In this document: piece after piece, positions 1,032 to 40,616 of the stretch | Numbering within the stretch: the first letter of the stretch is position 1 | Layout: each line of letters opens with the position of its first letter | Assembly: GCA_028821995.1 (NCBI GenBank) | Contig: JAPKEQ010000004.1 | Span: 1 to 41,286 of the forward strand | DNA from: Alphaproteobacteria bacterium | Lineage (GTDB): Bacteria > Pseudomonadota > Alphaproteobacteria > UBA2136 > JAPKEQ01 | DNA length: 41,286 nucleotides | Direction of reading: 5' to 3' | Notes under the pieces: model-generated | What the model was told of the DNA's origin: nothing | The model's input: only the letters and a program-made list of their open reading frames with translations | Databases searched by the model: none | Program-made: the position numbers and the translations under genes

Positions 1032-1868
1032 TTACATAAGCTTGAATGGCGGTGCCATCAGCTCTTCCATCAGTTTGGCGTACAAAATATCAGCGGTCTC
1101 ATCAGCAAGGCTGGTGTCGCCCATGATTTTACTGATAAGGCCTGGTGATTTTGGCCTCAGGTCATGAATTTTAGGCTTGGTTTGGCCTGTAATGTCAGGG
1201 TGCGAATTGATGGCTTCACGGGTGTAGCCAAGTGCATCAACAAGGCCAAATTCAACAGCCTCATAACCTTTCCAAACCGTACCTTCAAACAGGTCTGGTG
1301 TTTTCAGGTCCAGCTTGTTGCCGCGCCCTTGAATCACATGTTTTTTGAACAGGGCATGCAGATCATCAAGATCCTCACGCATTTTTGCTTTTTGTTCTGC
1401 TGATTCATCAGCAAATGGGCTGATGCCAGCTTTGTTTTTGCCAGCGGTATGTACGCGCTGCTCAATGCCAAGTTTTTTCATAACTTCAACAAAGCCAAAG
1501 TAACGGGCCACTACGCCAATGCTGCCAATAACAGCCACGCGGTTTACAAAAATTTTGTCCGCGGCCATGGCAATCCAAATGCCGCCACTGGCGCAGACTT
1601 CTTGCACCACAACGTAAACAGGGATTCCTGTTTTTTCTTTCCAGTACATGATCTCGTTGTAGATCAGGTCACTCTGGCTGGGGCTGCCGCCGGGGGTGTT
1701 CAGGTCAATGAGCACCAGTTTGGGATGGTGTTTTGTAAAAGCTTCTTCAATCAGGTGGCGGTAAGCACCAATATGAATGCCTTTCTTGCCTGTTTGAATC
1801 ACGCCGTGCATATGCAGACGGTTGATGTTGAAGCTATTGGAGGGGGAAGATTTAAGGCTCAGTTTCAT
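1032..1868 (-). CDS. SppA/S49-family (ClpP-fold) serine peptidase
   Basis: LVLIDLNTPGGSPSQSDLIY...VVQEVCASGGIWIAMAADKIFVN...GSIGVVARYFGF...AVEFGLVDALG; start chosen at MKLSLKSSP after SD. Confidence 0.92.
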   Translation of the reverse strand: MKLSLKSSPSNSFNINRLHMHGVIQTGKKGIHIGAYRHLIEEAFTKHHPKLVLIDLNTPGGSPSQSDLIYNEIMYWKEKTGIPVYVVVQEVCASGGIWIAMAADKIFVNRVAVIGSIGVVARYFGFVEVMKKLGIEQRVHTAGKNKAGISPFADESAEQKAKMREDLDDLHALFKKHVIQGRGNKLDLKTPDLFEGTVWKGYEAVEFGLVDALGYTREAINSHPDITGQTKPKIHDLRPKSPGLISKIMGDTSLADETADILYAKLMEELMAPPFKLM

Positions 1869-1917
1869 TGAAGGCTCCAATGTATGAAAAAAGAGAAGAA
1901 GATAAGAATTGTTTGTA

Positions 1918-1947
1918 TACATACATGTAGAAGGAGGGGGCTGTCAA
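1918..1947 (-). promoter_or_regulatory. sigma70-like promoter TTGACA-18-TATGTA for the S49 peptidase gene
   Basis: Direct reading of minus strand. Confidence 0.7.
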
Positions 1948-2025
1948 GCTGTTCTATTCCTGTCAGTAAAATTCATGTGCTTTCTCATAAGGGTTCGTGG
2001 TTTAACAAAGGGTAGAGAGTTTTAA

Positions 2026-2670
2026 ATGAAAATGAATATATTTATGTGCGCGCTAACCGCATCGGTTACTTGTTTAGCAGTAGGGGCATCTTATGCACAA
2101 TCATCAAATACAGCGGCTGTATCTCGTCAAGTTATGAGTCTTAAAAATACGCTGGATAGTTTTAGAGCAAACATTAATGGACGGCTTAACGTACTTGAAG
2201 TGCAGTTTGAAGATTGCAGTGATGGTTCTGAATATGGAACGGTTGAATATGGGGCCTGTACTGACTCAAATGAAGTCGGTTTTACATTAAGCCAATGTAT
2301 GAATGGAAGCTGGAAAGAAACGGTTGATACTTGCGCAGTGCCGCGCCAGCAGTACGCACGTATTGGAGATGGCCGTGTGAATCCACGTCTTCCAAATGCG
2401 ATTAGCCTTGATGATGAAGCGGGTCTTCTTGTTGGGGGCGGACCAAGATTTATGTCTGGTGATACAACAACGCTAGATCAGTTTTGTAGGGATAAAGGTT
2501 TCCTTGGTATTGAAACATACGGACGCCACGTCTTCAGTAGCTGTGGTAATGATGCTGTTGTTGGCTACAATGGGTCCGATTATGTGTACGGAGCAGCAGC
2601 AACATTTGGATGTAGCGCTGCAACGCATGTAATTTGTACAAATAACTCATCAGATGTTATTGCGCCATAA
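2026..2670 (+). CDS. secreted, Cys-containing hypothetical protein with N-terminal signal peptide
   Basis: MKMNIFMCALTASVTCLAVGASYAQS signal sequence; multiple Cys in mature part. Confidence 0.75.
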   Translation: MKMNIFMCALTASVTCLAVGASYAQSSNTAAVSRQVMSLKNTLDSFRANINGRLNVLEVQFEDCSDGSEYGTVEYGACTDSNEVGFTLSQCMNGSWKETVDTCAVPRQQYARIGDGRVNPRLPNAISLDDEAGLLVGGGPRFMSGDTTTLDQFCRDKGFLGIETYGRHVFSSCGNDAVVGYNGSDYVYGAAATFGCSAATHVICTNNSSDVIAP

Positions 2671-2686
2671 GGCTTTTGCAATACGC

Positions 2687-2717
2687 AAAAAACACCCCGC
2701 AAATGCGGGGTGTTTTT
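2687..2717. terminator. bidirectional intrinsic terminator (aaaaaacaccccgcaaatgcggggtgttttt)
   Basis: GC stem with A/T flanks between convergent genes. Confidence 0.9.
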
Positions 2718-2724
2718 AAATCGT

Positions 2725-3405
2725 TTAGCTTTTTTGTGCCACAGGATTTGCAGGCTTAACAACATCATCAATGATGCCGTTGTCTTTGGCTTCTTCAGCG
2801 CTCATCCAGGTGTCACGGTCAAACCATGTATCAACCACGCTTTCAGGTTGGCCTGTTTTTTCAACGAACATGGCGTGCAGTTCATCATTCAGGCGCTTGG
2901 AGTGGTCAAAGCTACGTTCCATGTCCTTGATGGTACCTTGGGTACCAGCACTGACCTGGTGAACCATGATCTGCGAGCGAGGCGTTGCAAAACGCTTGCC
3001 TTTGGCGCCATTGATAAGCGTTGCTGCGCCCATGCTGGCTGCCATGCCATTCACGATAATGGCAACATCATTGGGGATGGATTCTATTGTATCAATGATT
3101 TTATAACCACTGATTACGCTGCCACCGCCACTGTTGATGTACATTGTCATATCTTGGGCGCTTTTAGAGCTGAGAATCAGCATCAGCGAGGTCAGAATAT
3201 GGGCCATGCCATCTTCGAAAGGGCCGTAGAGCTGCAAAATACGCTCTTCTAGCAGAAGGCTATCAGGGTCTGTGATAACCGTACCGTGAGGGGTTTCCTT
3301 CACGATGCGCGGAACCATAATATTGGAAGGGGTTGCCCCGGTTAGGCCACGGTCAACCATGGCTTTAATTTCAGCTTCAGCACCAAAACATACAGGATAT
3401 TGCAT
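2725..3405 (-). CDS. clpP: ClpP-like (S14) protease
   Basis: NGMAASMGAATLINGAKGKRFATPRSQIMVHQVSAGTQGTIKD...DRDTWMSAEEAKDNGIIDDV: ClpP Ser and His motifs. Confidence 0.93.
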   Translation of the reverse strand: MQYPVCFGAEAEIKAMVDRGLTGATPSNIMVPRIVKETPHGTVITDPDSLLLEERILQLYGPFEDGMAHILTSLMLILSSKSAQDMTMYINSGGGSVISGYKIIDTIESIPNDVAIIVNGMAASMGAATLINGAKGKRFATPRSQIMVHQVSAGTQGTIKDMERSFDHSKRLNDELHAMFVEKTGQPESVVDTWFDRDTWMSAEEAKDNGIIDDVVKPANPVAQKS

Positions 3406-3529: not shown

Positions 3530-4018
3530 TTATTGAGAGGTAGAAATTCTAACAACGCTTTTGAAAATATCAAATCCTTCCAATGGGATAGGTGCGCTCT
3601 TTGATGCGTGGCTGTGGCAGCGAATGTCAGATGGGAAATGATCAATTTTACTGGCCAGCCAATCATCTGCAAGAGATGTGAGGAAGGTGTCTGTCTCTTC
3701 ACTTTCTGCAGCAAGGCTCATAATAACACGATCTTTTGCATCGTGCTCTTCAATGCGGTGCCAAAAAAAGAGAAGTGTCTCTGCATCAGTTGCATGGAAG
3801 CAAAGTGGCGCGCTTGCATGGATTTCCTGAACAGAGGGCTTGCTAAAGTCATGGTCCAAAATAAGTGCAAACTTTTGGTATGGACGCAATTCCTTTTGCT
3901 TAAGAAATACATGTGCAGCACCCCCAATAAGCATTGTGTGGCTATTTTTAGGGCGTGTGCCAACAACATTTTCTTGTGGGTGGGCAGCAATGGATGAAAG
4001 TAGAATGATTTGACTCAT
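3530..4018 (-). CDS. hypothetical cassette protein, possibly related to the 8.6-12.2 kb paralog family
   Basis: ORF with own promoter, SD and terminator; core APLCFHATDAETLLFFWHRIEEHDAKDRVIMSL resembles the family core. Confidence 0.75.
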   Translation of the reverse strand: MSQIILLSSIAAHPQENVVGTRPKNSHTMLIGGAAHVFLKQKELRPYQKFALILDHDFSKPSVQEIHASAPLCFHATDAETLLFFWHRIEEHDAKDRVIMSLAAESEETDTFLTSLADDWLASKIDHFPSDIRCHSHASKSAPIPLEGFDIFKSVVRISTSQ

Positions 4019-4064: not shown

Positions 4065-4094
4065 TGTATACATTGCTTGCGCATGTATTGTCAA
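4065..4094 (-). promoter_or_regulatory. promoter TTGACA-18-TATACA
   Basis: Minus strand reads ttgacaatacatgcgcaagcaatgtataca. Confidence 0.8.
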
Positions 4095-4817: not shown

Positions 4818-5420
4818 TTATTTTAGCTTTACTTTCTGCCATGCTTTTTTGATTTGGAAGAGGGGGACTGCGAATCCCATACCGTCTTGCCAATCGCTTT
4901 GGCAGTGCATGCCCAGTAATTCGCCGTTGGTGTTTACCACAGGGCTTCCAGAAGAGCCAAAGGCGCGCACATCACGTTCTGAGTCACCATCATGAAAATG
5001 GTAAGGAAAGATCATGGGGGCCACATCTTGGCTTGCACTTTCGTTGCGCATCCACTTGCGTTGCGGGCCATCCCACACCTCTGCTTTATTGCAGGGGCGA
5101 GGGCCTTTGTCATGCGCACGGTATTGCGGTACCACGTAACAATCTTTTCCGAGCATATGGCTAGGAACAGCATGAGGAATGACTGCAAATCCATGACTAT
5201 AGCCAGATGTCAGGAACATGAGGTCTTCTTCAATTGCCCAAAGCCTTTTACGAGGCAGTGTGCGGATTTGCCCTCTGTTATACACAAAGATATTGGGGTC
5301 TACGTTGCAATGGGCGCATGTCACAATTGTACGCTCATTTAATGCAAAGCCTGAACACTTGGGTGTGTTTAAATTGGGTCCCATAAAGGTGATGACGTAG
5401 TCATCTAAACATAAAGTCAT
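4818..5420 (-). CDS. trypsin-like serine protease without signal peptide
   Basis: Triad motifs TCAH, EEDLMFL, GSSGSPVV; C-terminal LLGMHCQSDWQDGMGFAVPL. Confidence 0.88.
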   Translation of the reverse strand: MTLCLDDYVITFMGPNLNTPKCSGFALNERTIVTCAHCNVDPNIFVYNRGQIRTLPRKRLWAIEEDLMFLTSGYSHGFAVIPHAVPSHMLGKDCYVVPQYRAHDKGPRPCNKAEVWDGPQRKWMRNESASQDVAPMIFPYHFHDGDSERDVRAFGSSGSPVVNTNGELLGMHCQSDWQDGMGFAVPLFQIKKAWQKVKLK

Positions 5421-5451: not shown

Positions 5452-5480
5452 TGTATACGAACAAACTAGAGGGAAGGCAA
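5452..5480 (-). promoter_or_regulatory. promoter TTGCCT-17-TATACA
   Basis: Direct reading of minus strand. Confidence 0.75.
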
Positions 5481-5568
5481 GAACTGGTCAAGTAAAAACG
5501 CCTACCTTCGCACCTTATATGCCTGCCTCTATGCTGTTTGTATATGTCCTGCAAACAAGGAGAGCCCC

Positions 5569-6195
5569 ATGCAGATAAGAGATTTTAGCGCTGAAATAGT
5601 TTCCACCGATCAGGTAAAGGGCGAGCTTGTCGCCACCGCCAGTACATTTAACAGCGTAGACGAGGAGGGGGATATCATTCTGCCCGGTGCGTTTAGCAAA
5701 ACACTGAGCGAGCACAAAGCCAGCCACTTTAAGTTTTTGTATCAGCATGACCCGTTTTATCCGCTAGGTATTATTAGGAGCCTGACCCAAACAAAAGACG
5801 GCCTAGAGATGCGTGCAAAATTTGCCATGAATAGCGCCTTTGTGAGGGATAAGTTTGAGCTGGCACGTATGGGCGCCTTTGGGGGCGTGAGCATTGGCTT
5901 TTCTATTCCTGCAGGTAAGAGCCGCATAAGGCCTGATGGCGTGCGTGAAATTAGCGAAGTGAAGCTTATGGAAGTGTCGCTTGTGACCTTTCCCGCCAAT
6001 ACAGAAGCAAAGATTCAAGATGTGAAAGGCGCAGACCGCCTTATGCAGGATTTTAAAACAAGTTTTGGCCTCAGTGCGGCGGGTGCAAACTCTGCTGCCG
6101 AAGGCCTTAAAGCACTACATAAATGTGTAGCCGCACCAGAGCCGCAAGACTTGCTTTTGCACTCGTTGAAGATACTCAAAAGCAATTTAATCTAA
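5569..6195 (+). CDS. phage prohead protease (HK97 family)
   Basis: GELVATASTFNSVDEEGDIILPGAFSKTL...LYQHDPFYPLGII...FGGVSIGFSIPAGKSR...EVSLVTFPANTEAKI. Confidence 0.95.
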   Translation: MQIRDFSAEIVSTDQVKGELVATASTFNSVDEEGDIILPGAFSKTLSEHKASHFKFLYQHDPFYPLGIIRSLTQTKDGLEMRAKFAMNSAFVRDKFELARMGAFGGVSIGFSIPAGKSRIRPDGVREISEVKLMEVSLVTFPANTEAKIQDVKGADRLMQDFKTSFGLSAAGANSAAEGLKALHKCVAAPEPQDLLLHSLKILKSNLI

Positions 6196-6206
6196 GGAAT
6201 TAAAAT

Positions 6207-7403
6207 ATGTCAGATAACGTAAAAGACATGATGAGCGAAATCGGCTCACACTTTAAGAACACAACACTAGAAGTAACAAAATCTATGGCGGATCTACAAA
6301 AGAACCAATCTCGCACGGATGAGAAACTTCAGTACCTGATGGAAACAGTAAAAAACGGTACAAGCGGTGAAGTGCGTGAACGCTCTGAAACTGTGCTTAA
6401 ATACCGTAAAGCGTTTATGGATTATATCCGTAAAGGCCGCAGTGGTGAAATTGAGCTGGCTGCGATTCAAAATGATTACCGCAGCGAGTGGGCTGACCGT
6501 CTTGCGGCTAAAGGTAACCACTACGAAGCCAAGGCGCTGAGCCACACAGACTCAGAAGGCGGCTACACAGTGCCAGAAGATATGGCAAGCTCTATTGTGC
6601 GCCGTTTGCAAGACTTCTCACCTGTGCGCCGTGCGGCAACTGTATCAACAACATCTAAAGATGCTCTTCAGATGCTTGTACGCGACGCAGATATTGGTAT
6701 TGCTGGCCTTGCTGAAGGAGCTGCTGTAAGTGAAACAACAGCACCAACATTTGGCAAAAACGATATCCCTGTGCATAAAAAAGGTGTTTACATCTTTGCA
6801 TCAGAAGAGATCCTTGAAGATAGCGGCTTTGACCTTGAAGCAGAAATTGCACGCGAAGCGGCGGATAAATTTGCCCGCGCTGAAGGGGCTAACTTTGTTT
6901 CTGGTACAGGTACAGGGCAAGCCAAAGGCTTCCTGACTTACACAGCCGGTACAAGCTTTGGGGAAATCGAACAGGTGAACTCTGGCGCTGCTGCGGCACT
7001 GACTAAGCAAGGCCTTGTGGATGTACTGTTCTCACTTGGACGCGAGACCTATCTACGTAACGCATCTTGGATGATGAACGCATCAACTTGGGGTAACATT
7101 GTAAACCTAGAAAGCACAGGCGGTGAGCCGCTACCTGAAAGCTGGGTGAACCTCAGCAAGATGGAACTGCTTGGACGCCCTGTTATTGTGGCGGACGATA
7201 TGCCTATCGTTGCGGCAAACGCTCTCTCTGTTGCAGTGGGTGATTTTGCAGAAGGTTACCGTATTGTGGATCACATTAGTGGTATCCGCATGACGCGCGA
7301 TGAGATTACAGCACCAGGTACAGCGAAGTTCTACTTCCGCAAACGTACGGGTGGTGAGGTTGTGAACTCTGACGCGATTAAGATCCAGAAGATCTCTGCG
7401 TAG
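6207..7403 (+). CDS. HK97-type phage major capsid protein
   Basis: N-terminal delta domain then GGYTVPEDMASSIVRRL...SPVRRAATV...EILEDSGFDLEAEI...GRPVIVADDMP...GDFAEGYRIVD. Confidence 0.96.
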   Translation: MSDNVKDMMSEIGSHFKNTTLEVTKSMADLQKNQSRTDEKLQYLMETVKNGTSGEVRERSETVLKYRKAFMDYIRKGRSGEIELAAIQNDYRSEWADRLAAKGNHYEAKALSHTDSEGGYTVPEDMASSIVRRLQDFSPVRRAATVSTTSKDALQMLVRDADIGIAGLAEGAAVSETTAPTFGKNDIPVHKKGVYIFASEEILEDSGFDLEAEIAREAADKFARAEGANFVSGTGTGQAKGFLTYTAGTSFGEIEQVNSGAAAALTKQGLVDVLFSLGRETYLRNASWMMNASTWGNIVNLESTGGEPLPESWVNLSKMELLGRPVIVADDMPIVAANALSVAVGDFAEGYRIVDHISGIRMTRDEITAPGTAKFYFRKRTGGEVVNSDAIKIQKISA

Positions 7404-11242: not shown

Positions 11243-11272
11243 TTGACATTCTGTGCACTTTAAGTGTATACA
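11243..11272 (+). promoter_or_regulatory. promoter TTGACA-18-TATACA
   Basis: ttgacattctgtgcactttaagtgtataca. Confidence 0.85.
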
Positions 11273-11327: not shown

Positions 11328-11684
11328 ATGAAAATTATCAGTTTTTCAGATGCTGACCAAGCCTTTGCTCAAGTGTCTGCCTATTTTGAGGGCGACTGGG
11401 CTGAAAAGAATGTGGTGGTGACAGATGCCCATGAAATCACCGAGCGTGATTTTGCTAGCGGTATTGTAAGCCCTCATGCCGATATTATATTTTGGGCACA
11501 GGATAAAATGGTGATGGCGGCAATCTGTGATGCTGTTATGACCATGCAAGCCTATTCTGACAAGGTTCAACTTGTGGTGCAGCGCAACATTGGCCGAGAG
11601 TATGGCTCTTCTTTGTGTTTCCAAAACATGACTTATGACAGTATGGACGATTTTGTGCTTACACCTGATGCGCAACTTCCTTGA
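11328..11684 (+). CDS. hypothetical protein, accessory paralog family
   Basis: ADIIFWAQDKMVMAAICDAVMTMQAYSDKVQLVVQ core; own promoter and terminator. Confidence 0.8.
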   Translation: MKIISFSDADQAFAQVSAYFEGDWAEKNVVVTDAHEITERDFASGIVSPHADIIFWAQDKMVMAAICDAVMTMQAYSDKVQLVVQRNIGREYGSSLCFQNMTYDSMDDFVLTPDAQLP

Positions 11685-11733: not shown

Positions 11734-11762
11734 TTGACGTAAAAAGAGGAAGGGGGTATACC
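11734..11762 (+). promoter_or_regulatory. promoter TTGACG-17-TATACC
   Basis: Direct reading. Confidence 0.75.
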
Positions 11763-11770
11763 GAGCACCC

Positions 11771-11821: not shown

Positions 11822-12175
11822 ATGAAAATTGTGCCGTTTCATACGTCAGCAGAAATGTATAAGGGCTTTGCAGATGTGAGGGAATTTGAAAATTCTCAAG
11901 GGCGTAAAGCTTATGTTCTTATGACAAATGTGAAACCAGAAGATGAGGAAAGAATTGCTGAAAAGCTTTGTATGCCTGTTTTTGACTTTGTTCTTGCAGC
12001 GGGTAACCCAGAGGTGATGATTGAAACATGCCGCGTGCTCAAATATGCAAACCTTACAACTTCGCAGTATAAGCTGCTTATGCTGCGCCGCCATGGCAGT
12101 GAGTTTGTTTGCACAACGGACTTAGGGGCAATGCCGTTTGAAGACGTTAACCAGTTTGTCACGGGTTTCAAATAA
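11822..12175 (+). CDS. hypothetical protein, accessory paralog family
   Basis: FDFVLAAGNPEVMIETCRVLKYANLTTSQYKLLMLRR core. Confidence 0.8.
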   Translation: MKIVPFHTSAEMYKGFADVREFENSQGRKAYVLMTNVKPEDEERIAEKLCMPVFDFVLAAGNPEVMIETCRVLKYANLTTSQYKLLMLRRHGSEFVCTTDLGAMPFEDVNQFVTGFK

Positions 12176-12226: not shown

Positions 12227-12255
12227 TTGCAATCTATGCAACGCTGCTTTATACA
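12227..12255 (+). promoter_or_regulatory. promoter TTGCAA-17-TATACA
   Basis: Direct reading. Confidence 0.8.
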
Positions 12256-12302: not shown

Positions 12303-12929
12303 ATGTCTCATGATTCTTTGCCTCCTGCATCACAGGGGAGCTTCAACTACGCAGGTGCGCTTGTGCGCCTTAAAAACCCAGAACTTATGCCTTGTGGCTG
12401 CGGTTTTGCTTGGGATGCTTGGACTGTTGCCACATGTGCGCATATTCAACCTCAAACCAGCAGCATGCTGTTTAACTGTAGCCGCTCTGGCGTTGAGATT
12501 GATTATGTGGTGAGCTTTACCGAAGAAGATATTGCTTTTGTCGTGTGTAAACAGCCCCATGGCTTTCATGTTTTTCCTCGGCTTGAGGTTGAGCCAGAGC
12601 CTGATATTGCCCTTTCGGTTTGTCAGGAATATACCACTGAGCAAATTCCCTTTAGCCCTTTAACTGGGGCTGCCGAAACCACAGGGGAAATAGCCCAGCC
12701 AGAGCTATACTTTAGCCGAAGAGTACCGCCAACCAAGCCAAATGTTTGGACATACCAGTTGCAAAGTGCAACGCCAGCAGGTGCATCAGGCAGCCCTGTG
12801 ATGACTAAAAGCCGTGCCATTGCAGCCATGCATGTTGGCATGAATACAAGTAATAACATGGGTTACGGCATTTCAATGCTAACCATGAACCAAGCGTTTC
12901 AGCGTATGCTGCTACGCCAGTCAAAATAA
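12303..12929 (+). CDS. second trypsin-like serine protease without signal peptide
   Basis: TCAH, EEDIAFV, GASGSPVM triad motifs; same architecture as 4818..5420. Confidence 0.85.
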   Translation: MSHDSLPPASQGSFNYAGALVRLKNPELMPCGCGFAWDAWTVATCAHIQPQTSSMLFNCSRSGVEIDYVVSFTEEDIAFVVCKQPHGFHVFPRLEVEPEPDIALSVCQEYTTEQIPFSPLTGAAETTGEIAQPELYFSRRVPPTKPNVWTYQLQSATPAGASGSPVMTKSRAIAAMHVGMNTSNNMGYGISMLTMNQAFQRMLLRQSK

Positions 12930-13008: not shown

Positions 13009-13037
13009 TTGCGAGAAAATGCATGCTCATCTATACA
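13009..13037 (+). promoter_or_regulatory. promoter TTGCGA-17-TATACA
   Basis: Direct reading. Confidence 0.78.
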
Positions 13038-13615: not shown

Positions 13616-13646
13616 AAAAACACCCCGCAAATGCGGGGTGTTTTTT
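13616..13646. terminator. bidirectional terminator aaaaacaccccgcaaatgcggggtgtttttt
   Basis: Between convergent genes. Confidence 0.9.
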
Positions 13647-14211
13647 ATTCGGGTACAAGGCGGTAATCTTTATAGACGCGCAGGGCATAGTCAATAAAGG
13701 TTTTCCACGTGCTTTTGTAGGTGCTGAAGGTTTTATCATCAGGGGGTAAAAAGCGTGTGCGAATGAGCGCTTCTGTAACTTCCATGCGCTTATGAACCGG
13801 AAGCTGAGTATAAGCATGGATAACCTTATCAACGCTTGCGGCGTCAACCCAGCCATCATCGCGTAGTGCTATAACAAGCAACACAAAAAACTGCTCGTTT
13901 GGTTCTTGTATGGCGCTTGTTACATCTGCTAGCGTGGGCTCGGTGTAAGTTTCACCAATCTTTCTAAAGCTGGTAAAAAATTGATCTTTTACCATGTGCG
14001 CAGGGCTGCGCTCATCTGGCAGGCAGTCATGGGCATTTATACCTTCAAGAACCATACGTTTAACCGTATCGCGCTTAAGGGAAACGTAAGCCTGTACTGC
14101 TGGCAGTTGCATATGGTTATGCCATGTATCTAAAAAATTATTCCTCTGTCTGACATACGTCCAGACAGCGTAAGCCGCTTCAAAGCGGTTGTGTCTAGGA
14201 AGGGAAGACAT
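13645..14211 (-). CDS. hypothetical protein, divergent paralog of 13083..13610
   Basis: EPNEQFFVLLVIALRDDGWVDAASVDKVIHAYTQLPVHKRMEVTEAL. Confidence 0.78.
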   Translation of the reverse strand: MSSLPRHNRFEAAYAVWTYVRQRNNFLDTWHNHMQLPAVQAYVSLKRDTVKRMVLEGINAHDCLPDERSPAHMVKDQFFTSFRKIGETYTEPTLADVTSAIQEPNEQFFVLLVIALRDDGWVDAASVDKVIHAYTQLPVHKRMEVTEALIRTRFLPPDDKTFSTYKSTWKTFIDYALRVYKDYRLVPE

Positions 14212-17379: not shown

Positions 17380-17922
17380 TTATTCGCCGCCTTGTACGTG
17401 GCGTTTAATGGCGTGCAACTTACGTGCACCTTGGTCGTAGTAACGGCGCATTTCATTGTAATTTGCGTCTTTACGTGTCTTGTTGGCTGTGTGGCGCTCA
17501 CCCCTCCAAATAAGAGAAAGCAAAGAGCCCTTCATATCTCCAAACGTTGCAGGAGAGGCCTTAAATGTTTTATGGGTTTTATCAATACCGTACTTTTGCT
17601 CATGGCCCCAGCAGTTGCGCTGTGCGCCAACAGGGTCACGGAAGATACGGCAGAAAACAAGTGTCAGCTGCTGCGAAACTTGTTCCATTGCGCGTCTTAC
17701 ACGCTCAAAATCAAAACGGAATGATGAAATTTGATGATCTACAGCACGTACATCGCGTTGCATATACCAGTTATCAGTTTCTTGGTGATCAATCATATTG
17801 TTAAGTTTGCTGTAAATAAGCTGAAGATCCGCAGCATCAAGCTCTGGCATGTAGCGCGCAAAGTCGTTTGCTGTGGCTTTATCACCTAGCAAAAACTGAA
17901 TTAAATCATCTTTATGTGTCAT
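17380..17922 (-). CDS. hypothetical protein
   Basis: ORF with SD gggaggta upstream of MTHKDD. Confidence 0.72.
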   Translation of the reverse strand: MTHKDDLIQFLLGDKATANDFARYMPELDAADLQLIYSKLNNMIDHQETDNWYMQRDVRAVDHQISSFRFDFERVRRAMEQVSQQLTLVFCRIFRDPVGAQRNCWGHEQKYGIDKTHKTFKASPATFGDMKGSLLSLIWRGERHTANKTRKDANYNEMRRYYDQGARKLHAIKRHVQGGE

Positions 17923-18122
17923 GTGGATACCTCCCTAAGTATCTACCCTAATTTTTATTTTGGATATTTTTTATCCAAACTGAACTTCACCCAAAGTCCT
18001 CATATTTATAGAAGGGGTTAAAAAGTTACATGTCTATTTCCTGACATCTTCGCACTCTTGTTTGTGCCTTTCATACTGAAATGGCGAAAAAGCTTACAAA
18101 ACTAAAGAAAGTAACGTGATTC

Positions 18123-18332
18123 ATGAAAGTCGAATGTATTCGCCCTGTTGCGATCTCAACAGATGGAGTTCAAGTGAAATACTGCAAAGTTGGCGATATT
18201 TTAACTTTAAGACAAGACCTGGCTCTGCCCCTTGTTAAAGCTGGTTATTTGAAAGAAACTCAAGAAAAACTGACAAAAGCAAAAGGGAGGGCGCCTGAAG
18301 TGTCAATTTTGAGAAAGGGGGCATGTTCATGA
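18123..18332 (+). CDS. small hypothetical phage protein upstream of connector
   Basis: ORF overlapping start of connector gene. Confidence 0.6.
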   Translation: MKVECIRPVAISTDGVQVKYCKVGDILTLRQDLALPLVKAGYLKETQEKLTKAKGRAPEVSILRKGACS

Positions 18333-18874: not shown

Positions 18875-18886
18875 GGGAGGCGTATA

Positions 18887-19252: not shown

Positions 19253-19269
19253 TGTAAAAGGAGCGTTTT

Positions 19270-23202: not shown

Positions 23203-23616
23203 TTAAGTTGCGGTAATGGTGCCGCTACTTTCAAGTGTAAGGGTATAAGCAACTTCACCGTTATAGTCTCCACTATAGTCAAAACGGGTAATCATAAACG
23301 CGCCCTCATAAGTTCGGTCACTACTGCCAGGAATAAGAATTTGATAGTTTAAATGTGTGTTATCTTCAGCTGCGACGCGCACAAGTGAAAAAGGTGTATC
23401 ATCTTCAAATAAACCGCTACCGCTAATGTTCATGCTTTGGATACCTGCGCCTTCTAGAAGGGTACGTTTTCCTGCGCTTCCTTTATGGGTGGCATCAATG
23501 AGTTCATTGTTAATGCTAAAGCCTGTCGCGCGAATGCCGCCGACCACTGTAAAGGTTCCAGAAGAAGGACTATCTTCCACTTTAAGTAGTAAATCTTTTC
23601 CTTTTTGAGCTGTCAT
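23203..23616 (-). CDS. phage major tail protein (tail tube, TP901-1/GTA gp9-like)
   Basis: MTAQKGKDLLLKVEDSPSSGTFTVVGGIRATGFSINNELIDATHKGS...MNISGSGLFEDD...YEGAFMITRFDYSGDYNGEVAYTLTLESSG. Confidence 0.9.
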   Translation of the reverse strand: MTAQKGKDLLLKVEDSPSSGTFTVVGGIRATGFSINNELIDATHKGSAGKRTLLEGAGIQSMNISGSGLFEDDTPFSLVRVAAEDNTHLNYQILIPGSSDRTYEGAFMITRFDYSGDYNGEVAYTLTLESSGTITAT

Positions 23617-23666
23617 TTTAAATCTCTCCTTGTTTTAAAATCAGTTGGTTGTGTGTAATTTTTAAT

Positions 23667-24068
23667 TTAATTTGTTACTTTTGCACTCAGCCTAATTGTG
23701 CTGCGCCATGTGGCGCCATCTCGCATAAGAGCGGTACGGTTTGGGCCTGATGCGCGCATGTTTACAAGCTGAAATTCTGTTATGGAAAGGCTGCCATTAT
23801 GCAAAAGATCATGGACAAGACTCCTCAGCTCAAGGGCTTCTTTTGCCCCATGGGATCTGCTAAAAAGTGTGATGCGAATATCGTGATTCATGCCTTCCGT
23901 GGTCATGGTATCAAAGGGTGTACCGGAGGCATCAATCAGCGCACATGGAAACTGTGCATTTTCAGGAAGAGAGGTATAAACGCGTGCACCAAGATGCGCG
24001 GCAAGAGATGTATCCTCTTTCAGTTTTGTCAGTAAAGCCTGAATAAGCGGTAGGGTGCTGTCTGCCAT
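23667..24068 (-). CDS. DUF3168-family phage tail protein (GTA gp8-like)
   Basis: LIQALLTKLKEDTSLAAHLGARVYTSLPENAQFPCALIDASGTPFDT..GMNHDIRITLFSRSHGAKEALEL. Confidence 0.85.
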   Translation of the reverse strand: MADSTLPLIQALLTKLKEDTSLAAHLGARVYTSLPENAQFPCALIDASGTPFDTMTTEGMNHDIRITLFSRSHGAKEALELRSLVHDLLHNGSLSITEFQLVNMRASGPNRTALMRDGATWRSTIRLSAKVTN

Positions 24069-24204
24069 ATATGCCTCGCGTCTTTTGGGTTGATACAGGC
24101 AGTGTGGGGGAGAGGGGGCGGTGTGCGAAGTGGGCGAGTTATTATTTTTATTCCCGCTCTTGGTCTTTGGTTTTGTGAATCATAGATTTCCCAAAACAAA
24201 ATCC

Positions 24205-24330
24205 CACGCGGGTATGGTCTTGAAAATGCCCTTTTATTTGAATGCTGCGCGCTTTCCAGCGCTTGCATGTACTGGGTATTTTCGCCGCAGTCCCTTATGC
24301 CTGCGGCTCGCACTATTCGTGCTTGCATGC
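24205..24330 (+). repeat. dispersed intergenic repeat copy R4 (plus orientation)
   Basis: tcttgaaaatgcccttttatttgaatgctgcgcgc...gcgcttgcatgtactgggtattttcgcc...tcgcactattcgtgc; close to reverse complement of 26801-26915. Confidence 0.75.
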
Positions 24331-26579: not shown

Positions 26580-26974
26580 TCTTCGCTCTTAGCCTCGCAT
26601 TATGGCTCTGCTGCGCTGCGCCATAATGACGATACTCCGCGAAGTATAATCTTGAAAACGCACTTTTCTTTGAAGGCTGCACGCTGAGGCGTTTGCCTAT
26701 ATGTGCTTTTTCGCTCAAAACGCCTGAGCGTTTTGGGTCGCACTATCCGTGCGCCCACTCGTGTAGGCGGATAGCTCAATTATGTCTTACTGCTTCGCGA
26801 GCACGAACAGTGCGAGTCTAAATGCTCAGGCATTTAGGCGAAAATACCCAGTATATGCAAGCGCTGGGTAGCGCGCAGCATTCAGTAAAGGGGCATTTTT
26901 AAGACGTTACTTCGCAGGGGATCGTCTTTTTGAAGCAGCGTAGCGTATGAAAAAAGCGAAACTGAGAGCGAAGA
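26580..26974. repeat. about 395-bp palindromic intergenic element with head-to-head repeat copies R5 (+) and R6 (-) and near-identical ends TCTTCGCTCTyAG
   Basis: tcttcgctcttag (26580-26592) vs reverse complement of ctgagagcgaaga (26962-26974); cores cgcactatccgtgc (26739-26752) and gcacgaacagtgcg (26801-26814). Confidence 0.65.
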
Positions 26975-27043
26975 GAAAAAACAACCACTTCACACTTTAG
27001 TGGGGCTCTGTTCTTGTTAAGCCTGAATATAAGGAGAACTCAC

Positions 27044-27361
27044 ATGACTGTTTCAAATATTTCAGGAGAAGTGCTCTGCACCCTAAATGGGAAAGATTAT
27101 GTGTTAAAGCCGACCTTTGGGGCACTGATGCGTATAGAGCTTAAAGCAGATTGCTCTGTACTCACGCTAGCAGCGCAGGCGCTGGAAGGCACTTTACAGG
27201 TGAGCCATATAGCGACGATTCTAAAATTTTGCATGACAGAGGATATTACGGAAGAAGAGCTTGGAGAGATGATTCTCCTAGAAGGGCTTGTGAATACTTT
27301 GCCGTGCGTTCATGCGCTTATGAGAGTCATCCTTGAAGGCACATTAAAGCTTGATGACTAA
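27044..27361 (+). CDS. GTA gp10-like phage tail protein
   Basis: GEVLCTLNGKDYVLKPTFGALMRIELKADCSVLTLAAQAL...ATILKFCM..EDITEEELGEMI. Confidence 0.8.
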   Translation: MTVSNISGEVLCTLNGKDYVLKPTFGALMRIELKADCSVLTLAAQALEGTLQVSHIATILKFCMTEDITEEELGEMILLEGLVNTLPCVHALMRVILEGTLKLDD

Positions 27362-27572
27362 ACTCCCTTACGATGCCTATATGCAGGTGGCTGTACTGGG
27401 CTTTGGTATTTCCATAAGCGAGTTTTGGCAGATGACCCCCAGCGAGTTTAAAGTACTGTGGCAGGGCTATAAAACAAAAGAGGGGCTTGAGCCCCCCTTG
27501 AGTAAATCTGATTTAGAATCTCTCACCGCACGTTTTGGGCGTACAGGGGAAAGTGTTAAAGAGAAAGCGTAG
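27354..27572 (+). CDS. phage tail assembly chaperone-like protein (GTA gp10.1-like)
   Basis: MTKLPYDAYMQVAVLGFGISISEFWQMTPSEFKVLWQGY; overlaps gp10-like gene. Confidence 0.75.
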   Translation: MTKLPYDAYMQVAVLGFGISISEFWQMTPSEFKVLWQGYKTKEGLEPPLSKSDLESLTARFGRTGESVKEKA

Positions 27573-28437: not shown

Positions 28438-28600
28438 GGTGCCGTTTTCTCCCTATAACTATCCCTCTAGTAACCTAATGTTACGTATCTTTATATGGTG
28501 GTATTCAAATAAAAAATCAACATCTTATCACTTATTCCTGACACTTTTATGATGAAAGGGTAAGTACCATCTTTAAATTATAATTGTTAGGAGCGCGCGC

Positions 28601-29191
28601 ATGAGCCTGCATACTGAAGAACTTCTTTACCAGATTAAAGCTGATGCCAGCGGGCTTGAAGCCCCCCTTAAACAAGCCGAAAACCGCATGCAAGCTTTTA
28701 GCTCGCGCAGCGGAGACAGCCTTAAAAAAGGACTGCTGAATAGCTTGGAGCAAGGTAAGTTTGAACTTAAAAATTTTTCTGACCTGCTGGGAGATTTGGC
28801 TGCAAACTTTGCAGGGCAGGCTTTAGGAGGAGCACTTCCGGGAGATTCCTCAGGTATTGCAACGGCGATTGGCTCTAGCATTGGTGGTATTTTTGGTAAA
28901 GCAGGCGGCGGAACTGTTAGCCCTAATCGCCCCACACTTATTGGTGAGCGCGGCCCTGAAATGTTTGTGCCCAAAGTCGCAGGGTCTGTGGTGCCAAACC
29001 ACCGCCTTGGCAGCGGCTCTGGCGGCGTAACAGTACAAAACCATTTTAATATGAGTGCAGGCGTTGCAGGTACGGTTAAAGCAGAGCTCATGGCGGCTAT
29101 TCCTGCTATTGAAAAACGCGCCACAGCGGGTGTGATGAATGCAGTAAGCCGCGGCGGGCGCGCAGCTCGTGCTATTGGTAACCAAGTGTAA
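28601..29191 (+). CDS. short phage tail tape measure protein (GTA gp11-like)
   Basis: LYQIKADASGLEAPLKQAENRMQAF...AGQALGG..PGDSSGIATAIGSSIGGIFGKAGGGTVSPNRPTLIGERGPEMFVPKVAGSVVPNHRL. Confidence 0.88.
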   Translation: MSLHTEELLYQIKADASGLEAPLKQAENRMQAFSSRSGDSLKKGLLNSLEQGKFELKNFSDLLGDLAANFAGQALGGALPGDSSGIATAIGSSIGGIFGKAGGGTVSPNRPTLIGERGPEMFVPKVAGSVVPNHRLGSGSGGVTVQNHFNMSAGVAGTVKAELMAAIPAIEKRATAGVMNAVSRGGRAARAIGNQV

Positions 29192-29207
29192 AGAAAGAAA
29201 AATTCAC

Positions 29208-29810
29208 ATGACAGTTCAACCACTTCCAAGCTTTTTTCCAGTAGAAGAGCAAACCTTTTCCCTTGAAGGACACGTCAGCGTATTTGAAAGTCCGCTGAGC
29301 CGCGCTAGCCAGCAGCAGGTGCGCGGTGGTAGCCGCTGGCGCAGCGATGTAACCCTTGCGCCCATGGCCATGAAGGATGCGCGTCCTGTGCTTGCCTGGC
29401 TTGAAAATATTCAAGCGAGTGGAGACTTTTTCACCCTTGGGGATGTTGAGTCTCGCGTGCCGCAAGGTGTGGCAACAGGTACGCCTCTGCTAGATGGTGC
29501 AAACCAAACAGGAAGCAGCCTAACTACAAAGGGCTGGACGGCCTCTGTTACGACTCTTTTAAAAGCAGGGGATTTTATTCAGATTGGAGATGAGCTAAAG
29601 CGCGTTGTCTCTGATGTGAATAGTGACGCAGGCGGTCATGCAGTGGTTCATATTACCCCGCCTATGCGCGGCAGTTTTGCCGATGGCGTAAGCCTTGTAA
29701 CAGCAGATACAAGCGCGGTGATGCGACTGATAGATAACAGTCAGGCTAGCTTTAACAGTGGTGCGGATGGCGTTGTGTCGATTCGTCTGAGTGCGGTGGA
29801 AATTTTTTAA
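29208..29810 (+). CDS. phage distal/minor tail protein
   Basis: RGGSRWRSDVTLAPMAMKDARPVLAWLENIQASGDFFTLGDVESRVPQGVATGTPLLDGANQTGSSLTTKGW...LKAGDFIQIGDELKRVVSDV..GHAVVHITPPMRGSFADG. Confidence 0.8.
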   Translation: MTVQPLPSFFPVEEQTFSLEGHVSVFESPLSRASQQQVRGGSRWRSDVTLAPMAMKDARPVLAWLENIQASGDFFTLGDVESRVPQGVATGTPLLDGANQTGSSLTTKGWTASVTTLLKAGDFIQIGDELKRVVSDVNSDAGGHAVVHITPPMRGSFADGVSLVTADTSAVMRLIDNSQASFNSGADGVVSIRLSAVEIF

Positions 29811-29869: not shown

Positions 29870-29898
29870 TTGACCTGTTTCTAGAAAAGTCGTATAAA
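29870..29898 (+). promoter_or_regulatory. promoter TTGACC-17-TATAAA
   Basis: Direct reading. Confidence 0.8.
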
Positions 29899-29947
29899 CC
29901 AAACATCAAACGATCTTTTTTTCCCTTTTTCACTAAGGAGTCATGTC

Positions 29948-30727
29948 ATGCGGGCGTTTTTTTATTGGTACATACGCATCCTTGAGAAAACTTTTATACC
30001 TATCATTGTTTTGGTGGGCGCTTTTAGGGCAGCTCTCTTTTTTGAGATTTTTGTCATCTCAAAGCAAGCAGAAACATCCCTTGCACACTTTTTTGATGTG
30101 TATGGCTTTTGGGTTGTGGGCGGCTTTGCTATTTTTAATACGTTGAATATTGCCGTGTTCAATAATGCGAATTATTTGGCAACGGAGCAGCAAGAGCCGC
30201 TTTCAAAGTTTTATGATGGCATGAAGGGGGTCGGCATATTTTATTTGGCGGTTCCGCTCATTATATGGTTTTTGCCTGTGGCTCTCCAGTCAGAGGGTGC
30301 GGCTTTGCGTAATATTTCAAATGGCATTCCGCCTTTGGTATCATTGGCGGGGGCTGGCTATCTGTTGAGTATGCTTATTGGCGGTGCGTTAACGCCGCTT
30401 GTGCGCATGTTTGTAAAACCTGGCTGGCAAGCTGAACACCTAGATGAGCTGAAGGAAGAAACCACCAAAGTGCTCCGTATTCATGGCGCATTTATGGAAA
30501 ATGAGGCAGAGAAGGCTATGCATGGGATGAAATACCCTGAAGTGCTAGCTCTTAAAGCCCAGTGCGATGAAATTGGTGTGCTCACTGAAATGCAAACAGA
30601 AGCCTACAATGATTTGCAATCCACAATGGAAGCGCGGGGCGTAAAGGTCGTTCATGGTGCAGCATTTTCTGATAAAAACTCAGCCCAGCTGATGGCAGAG
30701 CAGGAAGGGACGTCAGATGGAACGTGA
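29948..30727 (+). CDS. multi-pass membrane protein
   Basis: Hydrophobic segments, SD aaggagtc. Confidence 0.8.
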   Translation: MRAFFYWYIRILEKTFIPIIVLVGAFRAALFFEIFVISKQAETSLAHFFDVYGFWVVGGFAIFNTLNIAVFNNANYLATEQQEPLSKFYDGMKGVGIFYLAVPLIIWFLPVALQSEGAALRNISNGIPPLVSLAGAGYLLSMLIGGALTPLVRMFVKPGWQAEHLDELKEETTKVLRIHGAFMENEAEKAMHGMKYPEVLALKAQCDEIGVLTEMQTEAYNDLQSTMEARGVKVVHGAAFSDKNSAQLMAEQEGTSDGT

Positions 30728-31056: not shown

Positions 31057-31085
31057 TTGTTTTATGAGTAAAACAGGCGTATAAG
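31057..31085 (+). promoter_or_regulatory. promoter TTGTTT-17-TATAAG
   Basis: Direct reading. Confidence 0.65.
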
Positions 31086-31134
31086 TCTTTGCATCAACCT
31101 ATCTTTTCTTTCTTTTTTATCATGGAGCTTTATC

Positions 31135-31569
31135 ATGATCTATCAAGTGACTATGCGAACGGTGAGTTACGTTGAGTTTATTTTTAATGACTACTACGAC
31201 AACATGGATGCTGAAAAAGCAGAAGGCAATCCGCGTAAGGTAAATACACGTGACCCAGATGCTTTGGTACTGCCAAGAGGTTGTTTTGGTTTTCGTCTCT
31301 TTGACCGCTATGAAGGCGTTTGCGAGGGCGAAAAAGTATCTAGCGAACGGGTGAATGTATCTGACCTCTATTTGGTTGGGACTCTTCTCAGCAGAAGCGA
31401 AGTTGCAGAGTATTTTCCGCGACGTGATGATATTCTTAAAAAAATGGACATAGCTGAAGCGACGTCTGTTGTGCACTGCTCTGCGCCAAACGGTGATATC
31501 TGGCATATTATTGAAGATAAGGGCGAAGGACTTACTGTTTTGAATCCAAGCCAAATCGCTCGTGCTTGA
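31135..31569 (+). CDS. hypothetical protein, paralog of 31655..32089
   Basis: GCFGFRLFDRYEG...ERVNVSDLYLVGTLLSRSEV. Confidence 0.8.
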   Translation: MIYQVTMRTVSYVEFIFNDYYDNMDAEKAEGNPRKVNTRDPDALVLPRGCFGFRLFDRYEGVCEGEKVSSERVNVSDLYLVGTLLSRSEVAEYFPRRDDILKKMDIAEATSVVHCSAPNGDIWHIIEDKGEGLTVLNPSQIARA

Positions 31570-35589: not shown

Positions 35590-35991
35590 TTAGTTGTTGC
35601 GGTTTGCCCAATCTTTAAGAGCTTTGCCTGCGCGGCTTGCGGCGTTTCCGGCCGCTGCACCCAGGTCTCTTGCTTCATCTTTCCATGTTTCAGGAACGGT
35701 GGGGCGCCAAGGGTTGCCTGTGGCTTCCAGTGCAACTAAAATGTTACCTTGTACGTAGTCTGGCAGGTCCTGAAAACGCTCACAGGTTTGCGATATACCG
35801 CGATTGGTATCTCTTGTAAGCGTAATTTCGCAGACGTTTTGAGTCAAAGTATTGACCGTAACGCTATAATGAAAATCACCATGGCGATCACCGTTTGTAT
35901 TCAGCTCTGTTGTGTCCAGGGCAATCGTTTCAGCAGATACTGCGCCAGCCATGCCAAGTGCACATACGGCTGCAAGAAGGATTTTTTTCAC
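35590..35991 (-). CDS. small exported protein with signal peptide (GTG start)
   Basis: VKKILLAAVCALGMAGAVSAETIAL; SD atggagta. Confidence 0.75.
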   Translation of the reverse strand: MKKILLAAVCALGMAGAVSAETIALDTTELNTNGDRHGDFHYSVTVNTLTQNVCEITLTRDTNRGISQTCERFQDLPDYVQGNILVALEATGNPWRPTVPETWKDEARDLGAAAGNAASRAGKALKDWANRNN

Positions 35992-36044: not shown

Positions 36045-36073
36045 TGTATACCATGGCGTGGGTATGTAGGCAA
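36045..36073 (-). promoter_or_regulatory. promoter TTGCCT-17-TATACA
   Basis: Direct reading of minus strand. Confidence 0.78.
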
Positions 36074-36747: not shown

Positions 36748-37277
36748 TATTTTGCTCCTTGTTTGAGGTGGTTTGGTTGGTGTTGAAACAGTAAGTTGAG
36801 GGCGTCTCTTAGGCGTGTGTAGGGAAGTATCTCCTCCCGCACGCGTGTAAGAATATCTCTTGGAAAAGGCTTTTTGCTTTGGTATTTTAGCCAGCTTGTG
36901 CAGGCAGATTCCACCGCCCAGCTCGGAAAAGGCTCTAGCATCATAAGCCAGTCATTAAATACGGCGCTGTGCAGCTTTTCTGGGAGCGGCGTAATAAAGA
37001 AGTGCGCCAGCAAAGCCATAATGCGCCCCATGGTGCGCTCTGGGTCACCTTCACGCAGCGCAGTATGCGTAAGTTTGAGTGCATGGCTTATGGCCTGCCA
37101 GTCTTCTTGAGATAGACGGCGCGCAACATCCTGTACGGCTAAATATTCCTTAGGCGCAGAAATCATGTCACAGGCCTCGTGTGCGTTTACGAACCGCATC
37201 ACAGGCACCGGCAGTCCATGCGTGAGTGACGCTTTGCATGGAGGTTTTAGGGGCTGTGTAACTTGGTTTGGTTTCAT
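36747..37277 (-). CDS. hypothetical protein, possible phage replication accessory
   Basis: LEPFPSWAVESACTSWLKYQSKKPFPRDIL pattern; adjacent to DUF1376 gene. Confidence 0.65.
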   Translation of the reverse strand: MKPNQVTQPLKPPCKASLTHGLPVPVMRFVNAHEACDMISAPKEYLAVQDVARRLSQEDWQAISHALKLTHTALREGDPERTMGRIMALLAHFFITPLPEKLHSAVFNDWLMMLEPFPSWAVESACTSWLKYQSKKPFPRDILTRVREEILPYTRLRDALNLLFQHQPNHLKQGAK

Positions 37278-37626
37278 GGGAGTCCTCCGTTTTGTTCCAA
37301 CGTTTAAGGGCGTTTTTACGTGCGGCAGCGCTCTTTTGCGCGCGCTTTTCAATTTCTACCATGAGCCTAGGATGGCGCCATGCGGCATCGCTTACGGTAA
37401 AGAGCGGCTCAAGCGTTGGGCGGATTTTTGCCCACTGTGCAGGGGTGCAACTGGCCATAAAAGCAAGGCGCTTGTTGCTATTGGGAATGCCGTCCTCTCC
37501 GCGTACCCAATGCGCCATAAGTAGCAGCATGTAAGCGCCGTGTTCTTGCACGTTAAAGTGACGGGTGTCGCGTAGGTAATCGCCAACGTAAAGAGGCATC
37601 CAAATGGTGAGGTTGTTATTGTTCAC
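37168..37626 (-). CDS. DUF1376 (YdaU-like) phage replication-associated protein (GTG start)
   Basis: WMPLYVGDYLRDTRHFNVQEHGAYMLLLMAHWVRGEDGIPNSNKRLA. Confidence 0.85.
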   Translation of the reverse strand: MNNNNLTIWMPLYVGDYLRDTRHFNVQEHGAYMLLLMAHWVRGEDGIPNSNKRLAFMASCTPAQWAKIRPTLEPLFTVSDAAWRHPRLMVEIEKRAQKSAAARKNALKRWNKTEDSHETKPSYTAPKTSMQSVTHAWTAGACDAVRKRTRGL

Positions 37627-37698
37627 TTTAATAAGCTTCCCGTATTTGGTTTTCTGCGAAAAAAAATGCCCGCTCTCCCATACCTTTACGCACAAAAA

Positions 37699-38127: not shown

Positions 38128-38154
38128 GATGAGGTAAGTTCCTTGTAAAAAGGG

Positions 38155-38673: not shown

Positions 38674-38763
38674 ATGGGGCCTCGTTGATAATAAAACAAA
38701 AAGGGTGAAGATTGAGTCTCTTCCTTACATATAGTCTGCAAGGAAGCGATGTCAAGGGGATAG

Positions 38764-39207: not shown

Positions 39208-39296
39208 GGTCATCTCCCTTATAAACGGGGGAAAGATAGATAGGTATATTTGCGCAGTATACAATTTTGGGGCAAGATTGCAAGAACATACGTTTT

Positions 39297-39614
39297 TTAT
39301 TCCCCATTTTGCTCAAAATCTTGTAGGTGACACAAAACATGTGTGTAGGGAGAATCTTTGAAATTTTTAAGAGAGCAAGTTTCTAAAATATTAAGTTTTA
39401 CAGAGGATTCTGTGTTGCGAACACGGTAGGCTTTGCCTGTTTCCCTGTTAAACCACCAAGAGCTAAAAGGGTCGTTTGCGTCTCCAATATAAGTTAATCC
39501 TTCAAAAAAGGAGAGGGAAGATGCACACCAAGAGAAATCATCTCGTTGATTTATATATGTTTTCTCGTTCTCTTGTTTAATGGAGAGAGAAAAATCTTGC
39601 CTATTTACTAACAT
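39297..39614 (-). CDS. small hypothetical protein
   Basis: ORF only. Confidence 0.5.
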   Translation of the reverse strand: MLVNRQDFSLSIKQENEKTYINQRDDFSWCASSLSFFEGLTYIGDANDPFSSWWFNRETGKAYRVRNTESSVKLNILETCSLKNFKDSPYTHVLCHLQDFEQNGE

Positions 39615-39814
39615 TTTCTGTATTCTATACACATATTTTGTTGCTTTGCCCTTGTAAGAGCGACCAATAATAACAATATGTGTGTATAAAGCATTATAAT
39701 GTGTGCCTTTGCAACGGAAATATTTTTCGTTTATGGGGTTCTCATATGGAAATTGATTTACAACCTATTTAAAATCAATGGTTTGTGCTGAATTACAAGA
39801 TGGAATTTTTTATA

Positions 39815-40264
39815 ATGGAAACACCAAAATTAACGATTACAACGAGGCTTAAAGCGATAAGAACCTCCCTTGGGCTTACACAGGCCCAGCTTGCTGCGCG
39901 TCTTGGATATAGAAGCTACAGAAGCTGGCAAGAGTTTGAAAGTGGCAATCGTACCCCTACGTTTGATGTGCTAGAAGCTCTCTTTAATAACGGTTTTAGT
40001 ACGGATTGGATACTGAGCGGGCAGGGGCCAATGCTCAGTGCGGATAGAAAAGGTGATATTGATCGTAGCCTTCTTATTGAGTCCTTGAGAGATGTGAAAG
40101 AAGAAGCTGCCCGCCAAAAGGTTTCTCTCGCTCCAGAAAAAGAAGCTGATATTGTTGCGGAAATTTATATGGATGCCTTAGAAGAGCAAAGCGGTACTTT
40201 GGATGAATCCCCCCTTGAAGTGAACCACCAAAACGTGGTGCGTTTTGTGAGATTTAGTAAGTAA
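39815..40264 (+). CDS. XRE/CI-like helix-turn-helix transcriptional regulator
   Basis: TTRLKAIRTSLGLTQAQLAARLGYRSYRSWQEFESGNRTPTFDVLEALFNNGFSTDWILSGQGPM. Confidence 0.9.
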   Translation: METPKLTITTRLKAIRTSLGLTQAQLAARLGYRSYRSWQEFESGNRTPTFDVLEALFNNGFSTDWILSGQGPMLSADRKGDIDRSLLIESLRDVKEEAARQKVSLAPEKEADIVAEIYMDALEEQSGTLDESPLEVNHQNVVRFVRFSK

Positions 40265-40285
40265 TTTTTATGCGATGATGCATGC

Positions 40286-40312
40286 AAAAAGCCCCGCAAC
40301 TGCGGGGCTTTT
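40286..40312. terminator. bidirectional terminator aaaaagccccgcaactgcggggctttt
   Basis: Stem-loop between convergent genes. Confidence 0.88.
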
Positions 40313-40322
40313 AGGAATCGAT

Positions 40323-40616
40323 TTAGCGAGCGGTTTTATAAAAGGCAGCAAAGGCTTGGTAGTCTTTGGCTTCTTTTATTTTTTTTCGCACAGTTACACT
40401 GAGATCGCGCTCATCTTTGAGCTTTTGAAACAAAGCATAACCACGCACAACAGAGCGCTGTCTGTTTGTGTTTAAAAAGTCAAACAAGGCCAGCATCTGC
40501 TGTCGCTCGCTCTCATTAAAATGCGGCGCTTTAGAGATATCCTCTTTAAAGCTTGCAATTTTGGCTGCGTATTTATCGCAGCGGGCACAGTTGTTAGGGT
40601 CGCAGCTGTCTCCCAT
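40323..40616 (-). CDS. small protein with N-terminal Cys cluster
   Basis: MGDSCDPNNCARCDKY; SD caggaggt. Confidence 0.72.
   Translation of the reverse strand: MGDSCDPNNCARCDKYAAKIASFKEDISKAPHFNESERQQMLALFDFLNTNRQRSVVRGYALFQKLKDERDLSVTVRKKIKEAKDYQAFAAFYKTAR

Follow-up and report, generated by a model that had tools for sequence, protein, structure and literature searches.

The window analysed here is a 41,286-nucleotide (nt) stretch of DNA that makes up contig C81 in full. The genome (G000) measures 1.67 Mb in 140 contigs, is 86% complete and is placed in the Alphaproteobacteria by its relatives and by the best matches of the tail tube. It carries virion genes and accessory genes, and this report concerns the promoters of these two gene sets. 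A second species of the genus (G001), of which 67 kb plus smaller loci were compared, was used as a reference. The virion genes form five units, which are interleaved with accessory genes on both strands. On the plus strand, the prohead protease (5569-6195) and HK97-type capsid (6207-7403; 94% identical in G001) genes make up the unit at 5569-7403, and the connector unit at 18123-20073 contains the gene at 18123-18332, a gp6-like connector, a head completion protein and the gene at 19270-20073, which has no assignment. The unit at 23203-24068 lies on the minus strand and encodes a gp17-like tail completion protein (23667-24068) and the tail tube (23203-23616). Two further plus-strand units encode a protein of the gene transfer agent (GTA) gp10 type with a tail assembly chaperone (27044-27572) and a short tape-measure protein with the distal tail protein (28601-29810). 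As described below, the accessory and virion units differ in their promoter class, and in both species the virion class is found at particle genes that lie scattered.

Four of the five virion units in the window share a promoter-like element, CTTCGCAC-N16-[C/T]AnnCT(G). CTTCGCAC itself is present in three units and CTTATCAC in the fourth, and a -10-like [C/T]AnnCT or TATGAT follows 15-16 nt downstream. If the element is read as a promoter, TTCGCA takes the place of TTGACA at 17 nt from the -10. The site of the protease-capsid unit is CTTCGCAC-N16-TATGCTG (5506-5536, plus strand) and is kept in G001 (C16:6307). That of the connector unit is CTTCGCAC-N16-CATACTG (18048-18078, plus strand) and is also kept in G001 (L156). 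The gp17-like/tail-tube unit is preceded by CTTCGCAC-N16-CACACTG (24100-24130, minus strand), for which G001 has CTTATCAC-N16-CACACTA (L157), and the tape-measure/distal-tail unit by CTTATCAC-N16-TATGATG (28524-28554, plus strand). The element is thus a putative promoter.

A matrix was built solely from the four window sites and then run over the rest of G000. Its best intergenic matches were before the large terminase gene terL, a 960-amino-acid (aa) lambda-J-like tail protein gene (C61) and a TerS-like gene (C99). The portal was also recovered, and a 185-aa tail protein gene on C38 was found by pattern. Among 809 non-window units, TerL ranks 1, the J-like tail protein 2, the TerS-like gene 3, the 185-aa tail protein 5 and the portal 6. 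Thus, five of the six virion or probable lysis units outside the window are in the top six (hypergeometric 1e-11). With a refined matrix from 14 sites of G000 and G001, which is partly circular, 681 host units on other contigs scored at most 16.6 and nine of the ten virion or lysis sites of G000 scored 17.6-29; the remaining site, that of a putative holin, scored 12.0. We also scanned the genomes with the pattern CTTMDCAC-N16-YANNMT, using the reversed pattern as a control. In G000 there were 10 matches (2 reversed), and in nine cases the gene that follows is a virion, packaging or probable lysis gene. The 11 matches in G001 (2 reversed) include eight before such genes, namely those for the protease, portal, TerL, putative holin, connector, gp17-like protein, 185-aa tail protein and a 117-aa protein that was called phage-like by eye. 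For the TerS-like orthologue in G001 there is a near match, CTTCGCAA. None of the 80 GTA-type loci that were compared from other Alphaproteobacteria has the element. Thus, the virion element is near-specific for virion and lysis units and is conserved in the second species. In both species, transcription of the TerL gene is predicted to begin on the A of its ATG codon (L127:4730-4770; G001 C16:15942-15900). Therefore, the TerL message is predicted to be leaderless.

Searches with a Hyphomicrobiales-type TerL and with PF03237 had been negative, and a terminase-less particle was considered for this reason. This idea was rejected, because the promoter scan led to TerL on C99. A search with PF05876, which is the wrong terminase family here, picked up a separate GpA-type terminase gene (L115, C89 591-1328). 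It was not found in G001 and probably belongs to an ordinary prophage.

The particle genes are thus found at C81, C99, C38 and C61, plus C125 for the putative holin. C99 carries the portal, TerL and TerS-like genes. Because the portal adjoins the orthologue of the window's first gene in G001, the end of C99 appears to join the start of the window. The order of virion genes in the window matches that of alphaproteobacterial GTA-type clusters, from portal to tail. In those clusters the start of the portal is about 6.4 kb away from the tail tube, and the tape measure begins about 1.1 kb beyond the latter; here the distance from portal to distal tail is about 31 kb. The accessory genes between the units are largely colinear in G001. 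An inversion of the tail-tube unit between the two species was considered and rejected, because the region is colinear. All virion reading frames are intact and are kept in both species with their promoter elements. The ratio of nonsynonymous to synonymous polymorphism (pN/pS) was 0.09-0.13 for the capsid, portal, TerL and tail tube, versus 0.41-0.49 for three accessory genes. Most accessory genes are 40-60% conserved between the two species. Five non-virion genes of the window (4818-5420, 13645-14208, 17380-17922, 37168-37626 and 39800-40264) are conserved at about 81-89%, like the virion genes, and may belong to the particle or its control; the last of them encodes a helix-turn-helix protein.

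The accessory genes have promoters of another class. The original prediction was that a standard unit, consisting of a near-consensus promoter, a C/T-rich tract and a Shine-Dalgarno (SD) sequence, recurs at the accessory genes and is a signature of morons in a prophage. Phage morons are stand-alone accessory genes with their own promoter and terminator among virion genes. The eleven promoters that had been listed are all literally present in the right orientation, each is aimed at a gene, and they lie mostly 30-60 nt 5' of the SD and start codon. Five of these host-type promoters are on the minus strand. They lie at 1918-1948 before an S49 peptidase gene (1032-1868; with C/T leader), at 4065-4094 before 3530-4018 (TTGACA-N18-TATACA; the -35 and TATAC are conserved in G001), at 5452-5480 before a trypsin-like gene (4818-5420; TATACAAAAC is conserved in G001), at 36045-36073 before 35590-35991 (with C/T leader) and at 39256-39283 before the gene that ends at 37628 (TTGCAA-N16-TATACT). 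The six on the plus strand lie at 11243-11272 before 11328-11684, at 11734-11764 before 11822-12175 (TTGACG-N17-TATACC; conserved in G001) and, each with a C/T leader, at 12227-12255 before a weakly trypsin-like gene (12303-12929), at 13009-13037 before a gene that starts near 13083, at 29870-29900 before 29948-30727 and at 31057-31087 before 31135-31569. TTGATT-N17-TATACC before 24409 is another window promoter that is conserved in G001.

The strict core TTG-N19..21-TATAC[AT] is present in 4.5% of the host's upstream regions and in 14% of those of the window, against a rate of 0.0019 per 150 nt in host coding DNA. Therefore, its occurrence upstream of genes is far above chance. A C/T-rich tract does follow the -10 and precede the SD, but its length varies. 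When the full unit is defined as a promoter, a C/T run of at least 10 and an SD, it precedes 11 of 43 units in the window (26%) and 60 of 753 host units (8%; Fisher p=0.0007). It precedes 10 of 67 units on the G001 contig (15%), and shuffled host leaders give it in 6 of 753 cases. The local enrichment over the rest of the genome is 3- to 4-fold, and eleven full units are not reached by any run of 43 consecutive host units. In the part of C125 that was examined, the density of full units is above that of the window. No other contig of the genome is as dense in promoter/C-T-leader units as C125 (L151), which carries a run of stand-alone orphan genes that includes the putative holin. Terminators had also been predicted near the cassettes, and terminator-like hairpins are indeed dense in the window, at about twice the shuffled expectation: per 20 kb, 51 versus 22 expected (standard deviation 4) and 43 versus 24 (standard deviation 4). 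In one host control region the count was slightly above expectation (28 versus 22). The count of generic TTGACA/TATAAT promoters over the whole window was not above shuffles (24 versus 32; 36 versus 29). Thus, the signal is the position just 5' of genes and not bulk density.

The same promoter is used by the host. We trained a two-box model by expectation maximisation on 753 upstream regions outside the window, and it converged on TTGnnn-N17-TATA[A/C][A/T], in which a spacing of 17 is dominant. Among the 205 host promoters above threshold, the -10 that occurs most often is TATACA (22 promoters). On this model the window accessory genes are not different from host genes (p=0.12). The full unit is present, for example, before genes for an ftsH-like protease, an NAD synthase, an AMP-binding/acyltransferase protein and a peptide-binding protein, and before many orphan genes. 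The original prediction had itself named the same motif before random host genes as the observation that would speak against it, and this test came out positive. The promoter and the full unit are found genome-wide, and we reject them as a signature of morons or of a prophage. We conclude that the accessory unit is the host's ordinary stand-alone gene architecture. C/T-rich leaders are bound by S1-type proteins in translation, and the leader most likely helps translation initiation. The predicted absence of this signature from virion genes was borne out: six virion starts score below the accessory genes on the host model (p=0.004). Because the accessory genes have sigma-70-type promoters and the virion genes are without them, the two sets are very probably transcribed independently. 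In this respect, the idea that the cassettes are expressed apart from the virion operons stands, since they have their own sigma-70-type promoters and often terminators, but the moron-type cassette does not. Thus, the contrast between accessory and virion genes is real, but its meaning is another one.

As in the definition of GTA viriforms (PMC9662315), the particle genes are derived from caudoviricetes and are fully endogenised at multiple loci. The virion region is colinear in the two species, the capsid was not found in 16 other genomes of the order, and an IMG/VR search with the capsid gave no match. The portal-to-tail order is that of the family of the Rhodobacter capsulatus GTA (RcGTA), and portal and tail tube match the best of the 80 loci at 42% and 49%, respectively. 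The RcGTA-type large terminase and g13-g15 tail tip were not found: TerL is of the psiM2 type with its nearest relatives in Pelagibacter phages, the tail tip is lambda-J-like, and sequence searches did not recover RcGTA-type g13 and g15, which seem to be replaced by the 185-aa tail protein and the 960-aa J-like protein. TerL, the distal tail protein, the 185-aa tail protein and the J-like tail-tip protein have no match in the 80 GTA-type loci. Because the type of TerL differs and these tail proteins are unmatched, we call the predicted particle GTA-like and leave it outside the RcGTA family.

RcGTA is regulated by GafA and encoded at five loci (PMC9662315, PMC6363796). The particle described here resembles it in having homologous portal, protease, capsid, connector, tail tube and gp10-type proteins in the same order and in occupying more than one locus. 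It differs in that accessory genes are interposed in the structural cluster, which is about three times as long as a result, and in that the cluster is divided between the two strands. In the Caulobacter GTA (CcGTA), the promoter has a poor -35 (AATCAT) and needs GafY and IHF to recruit RpoD, GafZ acts by antitermination, and there are about 18 accessory promoters, with the structural genes in one cluster under one promoter (PMC11150451). The likeness is that particle genes are placed at several promoters with a poor -35, which in our case, too, would be raised by a dedicated activator that acts on the housekeeping sigma factor. The difference is that here even the head and tail genes are distributed over many units, each with an element, and that the -35 region is cTTCGCAc instead of AATCAT. 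No DUF6456 protein (GafA/GafZ) was found in G000 or G001 while the Caulobacter control was positive, but this is a weak negative because the same search missed TerL with PF03237. Phage late-gene regulons use a single type of promoter for all their virion, packaging and lysis units. The present system is alike in this respect, but its units are spread over a bacterial chromosome and lie on at least four contigs.

From these results, we consider it probable that the window carries part of the genes of a domesticated, GTA-like siphovirus particle. These genes lie scattered among host genes but would be brought together by a dedicated promoter, while the accessory genes depend on host sigma-70 promoters. 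Dispersed, endogenised, intact and strongly constrained genes fit a domesticated particle. According to this proposal, the accessory genes would be transcribed one by one from a housekeeping sigma-70-type promoter with a C/T-rich leader and an SD. The virion, packaging and probably lysis units carry a sigma-70-like -10 with the conserved, non-consensus CTTCGCAC exactly over the -35 position. CTTCGCAC would be read either by an alternative sigma factor or by a dedicated activator in contact with the housekeeping one. This regulator would turn on all scattered units together, and a working particle would still be made as one unit. The chances are about even that some 10 units at four or more loci form one regulon through CTTCGCAC-N16-[C/T]AnnCTG under a regulator that is not of the known GafA/GafYZ kind.

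Several points weigh against this proposal. The GTA-gp10 unit (27044) has no good site; the degenerate match before it (CTTCACAC with a poor -10, 26988-27018, plus strand) scores 0.6 and was not counted. The motif was first picked by eye, and a chance 8-mer is common to three of five random units in 1.3% of draws. Because this discovery statistic is weak, the support comes from the held-out units. The putative holin (77 aa with a coiled coil and a membrane segment, on C125, 91% identical in G001) has no family match, was named from its sequence alone and ranks 17 of the 809 non-window units with the four-site matrix. The sole strong non-virion match, GTTCGCAC-N16-TAAGCTT, is before dnaA (L077:2343). 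Moreover, the sequence analysed amounts to about 1.37 Mb (about 82% of G000), and genes were called by a simple hexamer model, so that gene starts are approximate.

In another explanation, CTTCGCAC-N16-CATACTG is a general host site for an alternative sigma factor or a stress regulator, and the virion genes joined this host regulon. The element does have the geometry of a sigma-70-family promoter, and host-linked regulators control GTAs in other bacteria (PMC6363796, PMC11150451). However, nearly all strong intergenic matches in the analysed sequence precede virion, packaging or probable lysis genes, and dnaA is the only other one. Therefore, we regard a host regulon as unlikely. We give still less credence to the accessory genes being morons, that is, imported cassettes that were inserted into a prophage and are expressed in the lysogen from their own promoters. 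Stand-alone genes with promoters and many terminators between virion units, and the local enrichment of the full unit, are what this idea expects. In contrast, a promoter signature specific to the cassettes was not found, the promoter and leader being the genome's housekeeping architecture, and this host-wide occurrence largely refutes it. Variable insertion into a prophage was not seen either: many accessory genes occupy the same places in G001 and are thus old residents, and in the two species the virion genes are at several chromosomal places and not in one compact prophage. A decaying prophage, of which scattered remnants no longer cooperate and the late promoters are leftovers, would account for the separation of virion genes by unrelated genes and for a terminase and tail tip that are not of the RcGTA type. 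It is very improbable, however, since no virion frame is broken, and all of them are under strong constraint and retained, together with their elements, in both species.

The usual mark by which GTAs are recognised is a compact head-tail cluster, and a dispersed GTA escapes searches of this kind. Here one family search missed the TerL gene to which the promoter element pointed. If the domesticated, dispersed particle is the correct reading, a shared promoter would be one way in which a virus dissolves into a genome and yet is still made. The element would then serve as a sequence handle for missing particle genes, and the regulator could be found by DNA affinity. Thus, the part that seems worth pursuing is the candidate dispersed GTA-like particle regulon with its own promoter element.

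Two other sequences near virion units were considered and rejected as control elements. TTCCTGACA is found at two window virion units and at the G001 orthologue of one, but it is not confined to them and recurs in many unrelated intergenic regions, in some of them as inverted pairs. Its intergenic sites include L046:9996, L056:7941-7958, C53 (L012):6019, L090:4001 and window positions 18037 and 28534. At L056 it forms an inverted pair (TTGTCAGGAA ... TTCCTGACA), which resembles the operator of some regulator. A repeat of about 80 bp before the virion units at 24068 (minus strand) and 27044 (plus strand) was rejected because it is dispersed at many host places and in G001. This dispersed intergenic repeat is partly palindromic, about 80-135 bp long and 70-80% alike among copies, and occurs twice between virion units of the window (24193-24326 and 26644-26930). 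Further copies are present at L067, L136, C61, L037, L011, L097 and L126 and at L157 of G001.

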